This document shows positions 1 through 11,357 of a stretch of DNA of 20,705 nt, piece after piece. The stretch's first letter is position 1; each line of letters opens with the position of its first letter. Under the pieces are notes generated by a model. It saw only the letters and a list, made by a program, of their open reading frames with translations. It was not told the DNA's origin and made no database searches. The stretch spans positions 1 through 20,705 of the IMG/VR virus record IMGVR_UViG_3300032738_000122. One strand, written 5' to 3'. The position numbers were made by a program, and so were the translations under genes. Origin of the DNA: a virus.

Positions 1-2603
1 TCACCTCTTTCAGCAGTACATTTAGCAATAGCAACGCCAACAGTAGCCAGAGGAGTTGAAGGTGAATAACCTAGGTTTAACACATCAGATCCAGTAGCAT
101 TATCTACGAAGATATATCTACCAGTTGTAACTGGAAGTTGAGAAGTGCCATATTCAGCACCACTGTTTCCATTTACATAGCAGTTACCTGGATCAACAAT
201 ACCATCACCTAAGTCATTTCCAAAAATAGATCCTGTAGCAGCAGCACTAAACTCTATTGCATATTCAACTGCAGCAAAGCGGAAAGTGTTTCCCTTTACT
301 AAACAATTGGTATGTGCAAAAGCTGAAAATACTGCAGCATCATCCCAAGAAGCAGCAATTGTCAAACCATCGAAATAGTTATTTTCGATTTGTATGCCAG
401 CACTGATACCTTCAATATCAATAGCCCTATTAGGACCGTCAGCAGTTACAACCCAAGAACAATTTCTGATAATCGTGTCGGTTGAAGCAGCTACGATAGT
501 TATAGAACTAGCATCATTTGCACCGTTTACGAATCGGCAATCTTCGATAACAGCATCAGTAGATTCGATATTGAGCTGAGATGTAACGGCAGCTGTAGAA
601 GCAAGCCATAACATATTCTTAATCCGAACATCGGTAGCGGTAATTGTAATACCATCTACAACACCGTTAACAGCCAATGACGGCCTATTTGCCCCAGAAC
701 CTATACCAAGCAAAGTAACACCAGCTACATTAAAAGTCGTTGCGGTTGCAGGTGTTTCTGCGTGTCCTGGCATAGCAATAATATGATCGTTATTATCAGC
801 AGTACATAAAGCCACTGCTGCATCAATAGTTGCTAGAGCATTTCTAGCAGTAAGGCCAGTATTGGTATCAAGTCCGCCATTAGAATCAACAAACACATAC
901 TTACCAGTTGTAGCTATTTCACTTTGTAATTCTCTACCAGTGGTATTTTGAATTGTATTATTGCGAAGGGTTAATTCCCCTGCGTTAATACCAAATTCTG
1001 CTGCATTACCAGCAATAATATTGTCTTCAATAAGACCAGTTGCAGTAGTAGAAGAACAAATAATAGCATGAACACCAGCCGCTACTTGGTTAAGTAAGTT
1101 ACCCTTGATAACGATTGTGGTATTAGCTTGGTCGGATGATATTACACCATCATCCCAAGAATTCGTAATACTCATACCATCAAATACGTTACCCTCAATC
1201 TCTGCGTTAGTGATAGCACCAACAGCACAAAGAATAGCTTCATCAGGTCCGTTAGCCGTTATTCTGAACAGGTTGTTCTTAATAACAGGTTTTGCACAAG
1301 CACCTAAGAAGGTAATACCCTGAGCGTCGTTAGCACCTTGCTCAATAACACAATCATGGATATATACATCGTCCGCACCAGCTACCAACTCAATGTTACC
1401 AATGGTATTAGCTGTATCGCCTTCTCCAAATTGGACTCCAGCGATCTCAATATCATCAGCGTCAATTCGTAAAGTAGCAGCAGTACCACCAGCAAAACTG
1501 TTTTTTAGAGTTGGTTTTACTTCGCCGTTACCCATACCAATGATTTTGATTCCAGCAATGTCAGCATCAATCTGGACTAGAACGTCTTCAGCATGACCTG
1601 GCATTAGAACGATTGTATCACCTTGGTTAGCTGTACAAAGATCGATTGCAGCAGCTAATGTTGCAAGCGGTTGTGAAGGAAGTCCACCTGGGTTAGCATC
1701 ATTACCACCAGTAGAGTTTACATAGTAAACATCTCCAGTAGTAGTTTCTGCTGTCGCACTTCCAGATGTTGATTCAGGTTGGATAACCTGAACTGATCCA
1801 CCAGCTCCACCAAAAGGAAAATAAGCACAAAGTCCGATAACATACGGTTCACCACCAGCATTATTTACTACGATACCAGTTGCAGCGGCATGATTCAAAA
1901 GACCAGTTCCATAGTTAAATATATTAGACTGGATTACACAGTTGGTATTTGCTGCGGCATCAAGGTCAAGTGCAGCATCATCCCACTGGTTAGTGGTAGA
2001 ACCACCATCAAAATAACAACCAACAATAGCAAGTCTTTCAACAGCAGCTATACTTTGGATAGCACTGTTTGGACCATCAGCAGTTACTAAGAACTTGTTG
2101 TCTGAGATTATAACATCATCACCTGTGCCTGCGACTGTGATAGACTGAGCGTCGAACGCTCCACATCTAAACTCACAACCAACAATTTCACAGTGAGTAT
2201 CCGCAACATCTATTCTTGCTTCAGGAGCTGCGGTAGTTGATGCTACAAATATAAGGTTTTTAATCTTACATGAGTCAGCAGTAACCTCAATTAAGTCAAT
2301 TGTAGAAACAGCAAAGTTAGCAAGTAATTTTGGCCTATCGTCTCCAAAACCTAAACCAACAATCGCTATCCCTTCTACGTCAAGGGTGATAGCTCCTGTT
2401 AATCCTGCGTTTGCAGCAGCATGAGTCTCGCTATGATTAGGAAGAACATAAATTACATCCCCCCTGTCAGCAGTACATCGACTGATCGCATAATCAATAG
2501 TTGCAAACGGAGTTATTGGGCTTTCCCCACTGTTCCCGTCTGAACCACCAATCGCACCTTCAGCTATCGCAGTAGTGGAGTTTCCTACAAACCAAACTTT
2601 ACC
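1..2603 (-). repeat. Tandem protein-level beta-helix modules (three complete, one partial)
   Basis: Translated modules begin at about 2603 (GKVWFVGN), 1736 (GDVYYVNS), 905 (GKYVFVDS) and 122 (GRYIFVDN). The period shrinks from 867 to 831 to 783 bases, that is 289, 277 and 261 residues. Shared landmarks recur in order: the opening strand, a P-x-A-T segment, CTA(D/E/N)-x-x-D/G, P(G/N)H, and later FDG followed by WDD. DNA identity is low, so this is an old internal duplication and not an assembly repeat. Confidence 0.75.
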
Positions 2604-2672
2604 AGTAGACTCCATACCTTGTGCTGAGATTAATTGGTTAACTTTTACAATATCAAAATTCGTTACTCCCAT
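1..2672 (-). CDS. Modular right-handed beta-helix structural protein, C-terminus beyond window
   Basis: One open frame runs from the ATG at 2672 to the left window edge with no stop, so at least 890 residues are present and the C-terminus is missing. A very strong SD (GGAGGAGG) lies 5 bases before the ATG. The protein is rich in G, A, T, N, D and V, with many short strand-turn repeats typical of parallel beta-helices. It consists of tandem modules beginning near 2603, 1736, 905 and 122. Each opens with a cap of the type G-x-Y-x-F/Y-V-D/N, then G-x-D, P-x-x-P-x-A-T-I/L and GD-x-I-x-x-x-P-x-H, as in pectate-lyase-like and tailspike helices. Each complete module later carries a FDG-x6-WDD motif. 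Because it directly follows the major capsid gene it is probably a virion component (fibre, spike or capsid-bound protein). The exact role is inferred. Confidence 0.8.
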   Translation of the reverse strand, partial: MGVTNFDIVKVNQLISAQGMESTGKVWFVGNSTTAIAEGAIGGSDGNSGESPITPFATIDYAISRCTADRGDVIYVLPNHSETHAAANAGLTGAITLDVEGIAIVGLGFGDDRPKLLANFAVSTIDLIEVTADSCKIKNLIFVASTTAAPEARIDVADTHCEIVGCEFRCGAFDAQSITVAGTGDDVIISDNKFLVTADGPNSAIQSIAAVERLAIVGCYFDGGSTTNQWDDAALDLDAAANTNCVIQSNIFNYGTGLLNHAAATGIVVNNAGGEPYVIGLCAYFPFGGAGGSVQVIQPESTSGSATAETTTGDVYYVNSTGGNDANPGGLPSQPLATLAAAIDLCTANQGDTIVLMPGHAEDVLVQIDADIAGIKIIGMGNGEVKPTLKNSFAGGTAATLRIDADDIEIAGVQFGEGDTANTIGNIELVAGADDVYIHDCVIEQGANDAQGITFLGACAKPVIKNNLFRITANGPDEAILCAVGAITNAEIEGNVFDGMSITNSWDDGVISSDQANTTIVIKGNLLNQVAAGVHAIICSSTTATGLIEDNIIAGNAAEFGINAGELTLRNNTIQNTTGRELQSEIATTGKYVFVDSNGGLDTNTGLTARNALATIDAAVALCTADNNDHIIAMPGHAETPATATTFNVAGVTLLGIGSGANRPSLAVNGVVDGITITATDVRIKNMLWLASTAAVTSQLNIESTDAVIEDCRFVNGANDASSITIVAASTDTIIRNCSWVVTADGPNRAIDIEGISAGIQIENNYFDGLTIAASWDDAAVFSAFAHTNCLVKGNTFRFAAVEYAIEFSAAATGSIFGNDLGDGIVDPGNCYVNGNSGAEYGTSQLPVTTGRYIFVDNATGSDVLNLGYSPSTPLATVGVAIAKCTAERG

Positions 2673-2697: not shown

Positions 2698-2788
2698 GAT
2701 GGAGCTGGTTCGTTTCCGACAGCCATCTCCATCCCGCATCCTATGTGGTTCCTTTCGGACAGCCACGTCGGTTAGTTTAAGCCAACCG
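2698..2788 (-). ncRNA. Tandem RNA hairpins with GAAA loops between capsid and beta-helix genes
   Basis: On the transcribed (minus) strand, two neighbouring hairpins (2743-2768 and 2698-2733) share one design: a GAAA tetraloop on a 3-bp stem, an asymmetric internal loop with CTG opposite a single A, then a TGG/CCA stem. The loop-closing stem is TCC/GGA in one and TCG/CGA in the other, a compensatory C-G to G-C change. The second hairpin has a further 7-bp stem (GATGGAG/CTCCATC). A third simple hairpin (2769-2788, CGGTTGG/CTAACCG with one G-U pair) sits upstream. None is followed by a U-run, so they are not typical terminators. They lie in the leader just before the SD of the beta-helix gene. 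Confidence 0.5.
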
Positions 2789-4853: not shown

Positions 4854-5800
4854 AAGAATCTACCTCCTTTTCGCTTTTTAGCTTTTTCAATCACCTTTTT
4901 AGGATCGGCACCCATCTTCGTTACCCAGGAAAGTTTCTCTTCATGGTTTTCACCAAGCAGAGAAGTTAAACTTTCAGTCTCACGTCCTGCAACAGTCGTT
5001 CCTGGATTTTCTACCGAATTAGTTCCTTTTTTGACAATAGATCTGTGTGCTCCGTCAACAGCTTTCTGTTTTATCCTCGGAAGTTCCTTGTCAAGCAAAT
5101 TCTTTTGGGCTAACTGAACCGCTATCTCTATCCCATCAACGCTATGCAATACCCTATTCGACTTAACAACTCTATCGGTTTCCCGATATAAAGCCGACTT
5201 AGGGTCTTTTAGATCTGGATATTTCTCCATAGCCTCATAACGCTTTCGGTCAGTAGCAGTCATAGCCTGAACCGCTGCAAGGGTTTCCGTCTGGCTCATC
5301 CGAAGCAACTCGTCCATCGCCACTTTATCACCCAAAGTAGCAGCTTCCATAAGCTCCTCTTTGGATTTCGTTGGTGATTGTGGAGGCTTCTCGCCCATGA
5401 TGTTCCCATTGGCATCAACAGCATATTTCGATTCAACCTGATTCATCAGCTTGTTATATTTGTCCAAACTTGTATCAGCTCGACTACGCTCGCTTGCCAA
5501 TGCTTCCTCTTTTAGCCTAAAACCTTCGTCCGCTTCTTCCTTAGTCTTATACGTCCCAACATAGAAATCTTTATCTGGGGTGTTCCCTTCTGGCGTTTCT
5601 TTACCCGAAGAGGCCTCTTCTGAAACCCTTTCGATACCATCGTCAGTATTGGTTTCAGAAACCTTCTCGACTGGAGTTTCCGCAGACCCAGAGCCAGTGT
5701 TCCCTTCGGTTTCCACCGAAGAGGTTGGTTTATCCACTACCGCAGTTTCTGCAGCAGCTGTGGGCGTCCCGCTTTCTTCTCCTAGTTCTCTTATTACCAT
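4850..5800 (-). CDS. Putative scaffolding protein
   Basis: A 316-residue protein with an acidic, low-complexity N-terminus (about residues 1-75, rich in E, T, S, G and P), helical charged middle regions and a strongly basic C-terminal tail (KKVIEKAKKRKGGRFL). Acidic or helical bodies with a basic, capsid-binding C-terminal helix are typical of tailed-phage scaffolds, which guide procapsid formation and then leave. It lies two genes before the major capsid gene, the usual place. The start is preceded by TAGGAGGG with 11-base spacing. No protease gene is seen within the window. Assignment rests on composition and position. Confidence 0.6.
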   Translation of the reverse strand: MVIRELGEESGTPTAAAETAVVDKPTSSVETEGNTGSGSAETPVEKVSETNTDDGIERVSEEASSGKETPEGNTPDKDFYVGTYKTKEEADEGFRLKEEALASERSRADTSLDKYNKLMNQVESKYAVDANGNIMGEKPPQSPTKSKEELMEAATLGDKVAMDELLRMSQTETLAAVQAMTATDRKRYEAMEKYPDLKDPKSALYRETDRVVKSNRVLHSVDGIEIAVQLAQKNLLDKELPRIKQKAVDGAHRSIVKKGTNSVENPGTTVAGRETESLTSLLGENHEEKLSWVTKMGADPKKVIEKAKKRKGGRFL

Positions 5801-5869
5801 GTCTTCTAATCCCTCCTATTTTTTATTTTATTAAACCCGCTTCGACCTTTTTTAAATAGCGAGTCTTAT

Positions 5870-5962
5870 TCATTCTGGTCCAGAAAAGAGTTTAATATCT
5901 TTATCCCTCTCAAACTCTTCAATGGTCTCATCAACCATCCGCTCTAATTCTTTTTCATCCAA
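5870..5962 (-). CDS. Possible 30-aa ORF between the 97-aa ORF and the scaffold-like gene
   Basis: A short acidic frame starts at a TTG that overlaps the end of the 97-aa gene by 8 bases. It encodes a helical peptide containing KELERMVDETIEEFERDKD and ends at TGA. The amphipathic, charged composition looks like real protein, but no clear SD is seen. An internal ATG eight codons in is an alternative start. It could also be the remnant of a once longer tail of the upstream gene. The stretch between it and the scaffold-like gene holds only that gene's SD. Confidence 0.3.
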   Translation of the reverse strand: MDEKELERMVDETIEEFERDKDIKLFSGPE

Positions 5963-6248
5963 GTGACAGCCCGCTTGGGGGTTGTCCCAGGGTCGGTGTT
6001 CCGCCAATGCCTTGTCCTCCCATTTTTTGTTGACTTAACATCGCTAATAATTGTTTTAATAATTCAGGTGGAAGTTGCCCAGTCTGTAATAGCTGCTCAA
6101 GACTAGCTTCCGAACCACCCTGTCCTTTCGGCATATTAGCCATCATCTGCTGGATAAGCTGAATTGGTGCTTGTCCTGGCATCTGTGGACCTGGTGTAGG
6201 TGGTCCCTGTGGCCCTTGCGGTCCTTGTGGAATTGGTAGTCCTGGCAT
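5955..6248 (-). CDS. P/G/Q-rich small protein downstream of portal
   Basis: A 97-residue protein with a collagen-like opening (repeated P-Q-G-P-Q-G), then an amphipathic helical part with IQLIQQMM and LEQLLQTGQLPPELLKQLLAML, and a glycine/proline-rich tail. Its ATG overlaps the stop of the 81-aa gene (TAATG), so it is coupled to it. The composition resembles the low-complexity C-terminal tail of the portal two genes upstream. It may be a detached portal-tail domain or an assembly helper; no enzymatic motif is visible. Confidence 0.6.
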   Translation of the reverse strand: MPGLPIPQGPQGPQGPPTPGPQMPGQAPIQLIQQMMANMPKGQGGSEASLEQLLQTGQLPPELLKQLLAMLSQQKMGGQGIGGTPTLGQPPSGLSLG

Positions 6249-10485: not shown

Positions 10486-10633
10486 TTTTAGAAATCCTCC
10501 CAGTATTTTTGGAAACAAATTTAACCATTGGGTATACCTGGCTTTTTAAAACCTGTGGGATATTACAGGGGATATATATACAAGACCCCCCGTGGTAGGC
10601 GAACCCTAGTTGCGACATCGCCGAATAGGTCAT
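10478..10633 (-). CDS. 51-aa mini-gene upstream of terS
   Basis: The ATG overlaps the stop of the next upstream mini-gene (TCATGA), and GGAGG lies 10 bases before it inside that gene. The stop overlaps the start of terS (ATGGCTAA). Coupling at both ends supports real translation. The product (MTYSAMSQLGFAYHGG...) has no recognised motif and is uneven in composition, so it could be mainly a translated leader that delivers ribosomes to terS. A perfect GGTATACC palindrome lies within it at 10531-10538. Confidence 0.45.
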   Translation of the reverse strand: MTYSAMSQLGFAYHGGSCIYIPCNIPQVLKSQVYPMVKFVSKNTGRISKNG

Positions 10634-10794
10634 GACGGTTGATCCTCCACTGATACGGTGACGTGCAGTAGCATCTCGCTTGGTATCAGGTTTATAATAT
10701 CCATCTGTTCACGATCACAGCTTAGCGTTAGCTTTGTCTCGTCTTCGTGGTCTCGTGTTACTTTCCACAGTCCGGCTTTAAATTCTAGTTTCAT
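10630..10794 (-). CDS. 54-aa first gene of the leftward (structural) unit
   Basis: A small protein MKLEFKAGLWKVTRDHEDET... ending VSVEDQPS. A good SD (GGAG with 7-base spacing) precedes the ATG at 10794. The alternation of charged and hydrophobic residues suggests a compact beta-rich fold. It is the first leftward gene after the divergent control region and is coupled by TCATGA to the 51-aa gene. No family recognised. Confidence 0.6.
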   Translation of the reverse strand: MKLEFKAGLWKVTRDHEDETKLTLSCDREQMDIINLIPSEMLLHVTVSVEDQPS

Positions 10795-11103
10795 GTTACC
10801 TCTCCAGTTCCTATGGTATATCCTGTATCCTGTTACCTAATCCCTCATGATTACCGTGTACCTATTAGGGGGTATATGTTCCAGGTAAACAGGTAACATG
10901 TTTGGTGTATTAGGTTATTGTGTATTGTGTTATTGTGTATGTTGTATTGTGTATTGTGTAGACGGTATATTGGTTACATGTAACAGGTATTATCATAGCG
11001 ATAATGCGGTTTATTTAATTATTTTAACGGGTGAAACACTCACGAGGGGATAAAAAATAACCTTGTTCCACCTGTTACCTGTTATTTTGTTACTGTGTTA
11101 CTG
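10795..11103. repeat. Scattered GTTAC(C/A)-type repeats, both orientations
   Basis: The core GTTAC, or its complement GTAAC, recurs about eight times: near 10795, 10832, 10893, as the perfect palindrome GTTACATGTAAC at 10973-10984, at 11074, 11089 and 11098. Flanks often extend to CCTGTTACCT. This density in 310 bases suggests binding sites for a phage repressor or replication initiator, or fossil copies of one site. Confidence 0.5.
10917..10959. repeat. ATTGTGT tandem array
   Basis: Five copies of ATTGTGT lie at 10917, 10924, 10932, 10946 and 10953, in a stretch of about 60 bases without a single C on the plus strand. A sixth, ATTGTGC, lies near 11114. Short direct repeats next to A+T-rich DNA are typical of iteron-like initiator sites or of repeated operators. 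Confidence 0.55.
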
Positions 11104-11228
11104 ATATTCTGTTATTGTGCTACCTATTGCCAGTATCTCATATTTGCCTATGTCATAGCGATTGATGTTATGCAGTTATATACTACTTTCATGCACTTCT
11201 ATGCAATGCACACCTTGATAAATGCGAT

Positions 11229-11242
11229 CTAACGCACGTTAG
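11229..11242. promoter_or_regulatory. Perfect dyad CTAACG-CA-CGTTAG
   Basis: Six-base arms separated by two bases lie about 115 bases before the rightward promoter, directly followed by an A+T-rich run. The symmetry suits a dimeric regulator. No regulator gene is recognised in the window, so its partner is unknown. Confidence 0.35.
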
Positions 11243-11357
11243 TAGTTAAATATATATAATAGTATGCTATCGCTTGAGTTCCTTCACGACGACAAACAGT
11301 TAAACCTCATTTCCTTGATATACTCATTCCCTCACTTAAATATATACTAAATAACAC

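Follow-up and report, generated by a model that had tools for sequence, protein, structure and literature searches.

The Mu-gpT-DE RNA motif (Rfam RF03012) takes its name from its association with Mu gpT-like head genes and is hence a positional analogue of the element described here. In phages T4 and RB69, the gp43 operators have a common hairpin top and lie upstream of the ribosome-binding site (PMC3014915). The element analyzed in this work is a pair of adjacent hairpins in the junction between the major capsid protein gene and a gene for a beta-helix-like protein in the IMG/VR virus record IMGVR_UViG_3300032738_000122, of which positions 1–20,705, a stretch of 20,705 nucleotides (nt) called the window below, were examined as a whole. 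With the Mu-gpT-DE model (gathering score 49 bits), no match was found in the window even at an E-value of 10, and none exceeded the cut-off in seven relatives. The reading that we favor, with a probability of about 0.42, is that the twin hairpins form a structured RNA between cistrons that is specific to this phage and acts as a post-transcriptional boundary between the capsid and beta-helix messages.

Structure of the twin hairpins

The initial annotation had described two neighboring hairpins with the same GAAA loop, the same CUG/A internal loop and the same UGG/CCA stem, and we found both where it had placed them, on the minus strand, which also serves as coding strand for the two flanking genes. 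It had also reported that the loop-closing pair is C-G in one hairpin and G-C in the other. Indeed, the shared core, UGG-CUG-UC(C/G)-GAAA-(G/C)GA-A-CCA, is identical at 18 of 20 positions between the 5′ copy (hairpin B) and the 3′ copy (hairpin A), and the swap of the closing pair accounts for both differences. The outer-stem flanks of A and B are unrelated in sequence. Hairpin A consists of a 9-base-pair (bp) lower stem, an A/G mismatch, UGG/CCA, the CUG/A internal loop, UCG/CGA and the GAAA loop, making 15 pairs in three interrupted segments, with a folding energy of −19.1 kcal/mol (z −4.9). Hairpin B has 7 pairs and a folding energy of −10.4 kcal/mol (z −2.4; folded segment 2738–2771). All twelve core pairs had a pair probability of 0.87–0.99, those of B being above 0.92, and the junction as a whole folded with a z of about −3.4 to −3.7. 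Upstream of B and A are two further small hairpins (z −2.3 together) that the initial annotation had not mentioned, which brings the array at the junction to four hairpins. Hairpin A can in addition be enclosed by a weak UAGG/CCUA stem. B and A could also pair with each other (UCCGA with UCGGA), although the local hairpins prevail in the ensemble. Hairpin A also holds a 10-codon ATG-to-TAA frame (MAVGNEPAPS, 2726–2694), for which the only sequence resembling a Shine–Dalgarno (SD) site directly abuts the ATG.

The build of hairpin A, with its 9-bp lower stem, mismatch and asymmetric 3 × 1 internal loop, is loosely like that of T7 RNase III sites, and its location between late genes would fit a putative processing site at which RNase III or another endonuclease cuts the late polycistronic message between the capsid and beta-helix genes. 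However, T7-like RNase III sites are cleaved in an extended duplex of roughly 20 bp, and the interrupted segments of A and the few pairs of B are short for an efficient substrate of this enzyme. We consider a processing site quite improbable.

The twin-hairpin observation is beyond chance. Across the whole window, the A and B cores are the only pair of 20-mers that are at least 18/20 identical within 100 nt of each other, and the best 20-mer identity in 1000 dinucleotide shuffles of the junction was 15/20. By a counting estimate for a 20-nt core with six pairs, two random differences would both fall on one pair and leave it paired with a probability of (6/190) × (4/9) = 0.014. The compensatory difference is suggestive, as a single event between the copies that was noticed post hoc. 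A coding repeat was ruled out, since the cores are 40 nt apart and in different frames.

The main null explanation is a recent local duplication without function, in which a single copying of the core was followed by drift at one pair, the structure being incidental. That there are two copies only, that the motif was found nowhere else, and that this is the window's only local repeat of its kind are all consistent with such an event. On the other hand, the two differences lie on one base pair that is still paired, and the flanks are unrelated, which would not be expected had more than the core been recently duplicated. Furthermore, the structure of the junction exceeds that of its shuffles, and the corresponding junctions of relatives are structured too. 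Taken together, we regard a duplication without function as unlikely.

The loop and internal-loop bases are the same in A and B despite the swapped closing pair and the differing outer stems, which is also the pattern expected of a recognized core. Such a core could belong to a putative operator: a phage or host protein would recognize the CUG/A internal loop together with the GAAA loop of both hairpins, cooperatively given their tandem arrangement, and thereby tune how the beta-helix gene is translated or processed. Among functional alternatives to a boundary element, this is the main one, because it best explains why the same internal loop is present in both copies, and the gp43 operators of T4 and RB69 offer a precedent. 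However, duplication alone could give two copies at a 40-nt spacing the same core, and the beta-helix SD, which lies about 11 nt downstream of the end of hairpin A, is not sequestered by it. Moreover, there are no further copies in the window, and no candidate RNA-binding protein was identified. We view an operator as unlikely. A cooperative RNA operator acting through these two loops, which would be a new motif by which a double-stranded DNA phage connects the expression of its capsid and appendage genes, appears improbable.

The coordinates of the hairpins and their neighbors are listed in Table 1. The head genes of the window are on the minus strand, and 128 nt separate the capsid stop codon from the beta-helix start. 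The beta-helix-like protein is similar to the products of genes that follow the capsid gene in relatives, and is probably a tail or appendage protein. Within it are at least three repeats that resemble one another and are about 300 residues long, all starting with a segment like "TTGKYVFVDSNGGLDTNTG" and "-PLATIDAA". Elsewhere in the window, the region 10519–11357, which separates the late genes of the minus strand from the genes of the plus strand, is apparently non-coding and has many short TGTGTTATTGTGTATTG-like repeats; it is possibly an origin or a divergent promoter region.

Table 1. Features at the junction and in its surroundings, in window coordinates.
Feature	Position	Strand	Sequence	Remarks
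Hairpin B (5′)	2766–2745	minus	GUGG-CUG-UCC-GAAA-GGA-A-CCAC	GUGG/CCAC, CUG/A internal loop, UCC/GGA, GAAA loop
Hairpin A (3′)	2735–2696	minus	GGGAUGGAG-A-UGG-CUG-UCG-GAAA-CGA-A-CCA-G-CUCCAUCUU	
Core copy A	2706..2725	minus	TGGCTGTCGGAAACGAACCA	18/20 identical to core copy B
Core copy B	2746..2765	minus	TGGCTGTCCGAAAGGAACCA	18/20 identical to core copy A
Third small hairpin	2787–2770	minus		GGUUGG/CUAACC stem; fold of 2768–2808
Fourth small hairpin	2804–2788	minus		Contains capsid stop codon (2803–2801); fold of 2768–2808
SD of beta-helix gene	2684–2677	minus	GGAGGAGG	Strong; unpaired in predicted fold
Major capsid (head) protein gene	3688–2801	minus		Upstream neighbor of hairpins; PHROG 371, E 2.6e-13
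Beta-helix-like protein gene	1..2672	minus		Downstream neighbor; open frame from 2672, runs off window
Genes for terminase large subunit, portal-like protein (PHROG head-tail adaptor) and scaffold-like protein		minus		Head-gene set of window

Searches for further copies

The exact core pattern had 15 matches in 2.9 million viral contigs, which is about the number expected by chance according to our estimate, and nearly all of them were unpaired; two (L051 and L053) resemble gene starts encoding MAVRK. A strict tandem pattern gave no matches in the same contigs and none in 84,980 prokaryote genomes. When the tandem pattern was loosened, 47 matches were found, of which only L169/L162 were fully paired, through G-U pairs within an exact short direct repeat.

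A covariance model built from the two copies, which is a weak model with two sequences only, found these copies in the window and no others. In 75 loci of capsid relatives its best E-value was 2; with filters off, the best in the nearest loci was 0.68, and eight whole records of capsid relatives gave no match. This search, which the initial annotation had proposed as a check, thus yielded no further motif above chance. No meaningful match to the junction was returned by BLASTN searches of phages and plasmids. Among the 4227 Rfam families, none matched the window at the gathering threshold, and the junction gave sub-threshold chance matches only.

In prokaryote genomes, a capsid profile search found one distant locus only. 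The nearest relative, IMGVR_UViG_3300033064_000783, has a capsid protein that is 81% identical, but its contig ends at the last codons of the capsid gene, and the stems could therefore not be compared in a true orthologue; the next nearest capsid relatives are about 50% identical. A conserved family of structured RNAs is not supported by the pattern and covariance searches, true orthologues not being among the sequences compared. As the core motif occurs nowhere else above chance, the compensatory change is one event between tandem copies and does not amount to covariation across a family. The earlier interpretation is partly supported: the claim of a conserved, covarying element has two copies from one genome as its basis, to which the searches added none, whereas selection of the RNA structure stays plausible in view of the structured junction, the compensatory pair and the structure of the relatives' junctions.

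The same junction in related phages

We compared 45 non-redundant junctions from the capsid gene to its downstream neighbor, 60–200 nt in length and with the window included, with 68 other gaps from the same loci. The junction counts include related sequences with no correction for phylogeny, and the gene starts of the relatives were called by a simple rule. The median folding z was −3.4 for the capsid-downstream junctions (n = 45) and −1.3 for the other gaps (n = 68), a difference with a Mann–Whitney p of about 3e-5, uncorrected for relatedness. GC-rich hairpins with stems of 6 bp or more were present in 33 of the 45 junctions.

Twelve of the 45 junctions have a terminator made up of a hairpin and a U-run. 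By analogy, the window might have a factor-assisted terminator or attenuator that lacks a canonical U-run and lowers readthrough from the capsid gene to the beta-helix gene. A U-run follows neither hairpin, however: A is followed by AAACCUAAAAAGGAGG and B by AUAGGAUGCG, and terminator-like site calling found none on the minus strand at 2698–2788. The missing U-run agrees with the view of the initial annotation that a terminator is unlikely, and we give a factor-assisted variant very little credence.

Hairpins capped by a GNRA loop were found in 16 of 56 junctions, compared to 2.3 expected from shuffles, while the reverse-complement (antisense) loop class was not enriched (2 versus 1.5 expected), which argues that the feature matters as coding-strand RNA. 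In several relatives (L022–L036, L077 and L082), a terminator-like hairpin comes first, then the GNRA hairpin and then the next SD, an arrangement much like that of hairpin A upstream of its SD. The hairpins of L077 and L082, GUCC-GAAA-GGAC and GGCC-GAGA-GGUC, respectively, are found just before the SD. Six loci of the first group (L022, L025, L026, L030, L035 and L036) have CUGC-GNRA-GCAG about 50 nt after the capsid stop codon, between the terminator-like hairpin and the next SD; its loops are GAAA, GUAA and GAGA, and a stem variant is CUAC/GUAG. What is conserved at this junction is position and structuredness, not sequence.

A different structured motif is common to the same junction in three capsid relatives with capsids that are about 46–52% identical (L070, 3461–3506; L072, 3452–3498; L063, 6059–6104). 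It consists of UAAG, a variable hairpin enclosed by the 6-bp stem NGYCCG/CGGGCN, and GNCAG, with one A-U/U-A compensatory change. No other record in the 2.9 million viral contigs matched it, nor did any Rfam family, and the minus strand of the window's junction did not match it. In L063, an HNH-endonuclease-like gene (5542–6027) is located between the capsid and beta-helix genes.

Possible role and comparison with known systems

If the twin hairpins mark a boundary between messages, the four-hairpin array, with the highly stable hairpin A as its foremost member, would separate the abundant capsid message from the beta-helix message, both by blocking 3′-to-5′ decay into the capsid reading frame and by providing a structured leader just upstream of the beta-helix SD. 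With no U-run in the window's junction, the element should act on the mRNA after transcription. In favor of this reading are the stable fold on the gene strand, the strong SD that follows, and the marked structure and GNRA-capped hairpins of the corresponding junctions in relatives. We infer that the junction is transcribed as one message and that the hairpins serve there as a decay barrier, a processing boundary or a leader. In the simplest reading, phages of this group set the capsid message apart from the next gene by RNA structure, through termination in some and through other hairpins in others.

Several observations weigh against a boundary role. The specific hairpin sequence is conserved in no relative examined. 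GNRA and UNCG loops are favored in any selected hairpin, and their enrichment therefore identifies no mechanism. A decay barrier also leaves the identical CUG/A internal loop and core unexplained, and on this point a recent duplication or a binding site fits better. Overall, the twin hairpins belong to an ordinary kind of feature, the structured intercistronic RNAs of phages, but their sequence is unusual and private.

Should the junction hairpins be functional, they would show that related phages maintain a structured RNA downstream of the capsid gene even as its sequence, and indeed its type (terminator, GNRA hairpin or tandem hairpins), is exchanged; late-gene expression control could then be tested directly at this junction. 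The twin motif itself would matter only given a binding partner or further members.

Compared to the gene 43 operators of T4 and RB69, the window is alike in having a hairpin with a conserved top upstream of the ribosome-binding site of a phage gene, but differs in that the hairpins number two, the SD is free and no binding protein is known. The closest counterparts are the hairpins and terminators downstream of the capsid gene in related tailed phages (e.g. L016, L018, L022–L036, L077 and L082), which have strong gene-strand hairpins at the same junction, several of them with a GNRA-capped hairpin near the next SD akin to that of the window. These phages have no primary sequence in common with the window at this position, and many carry a U-run terminator where the window does not; among their junctions, the tandem pair with the CUG/A internal loop is unique to the window.
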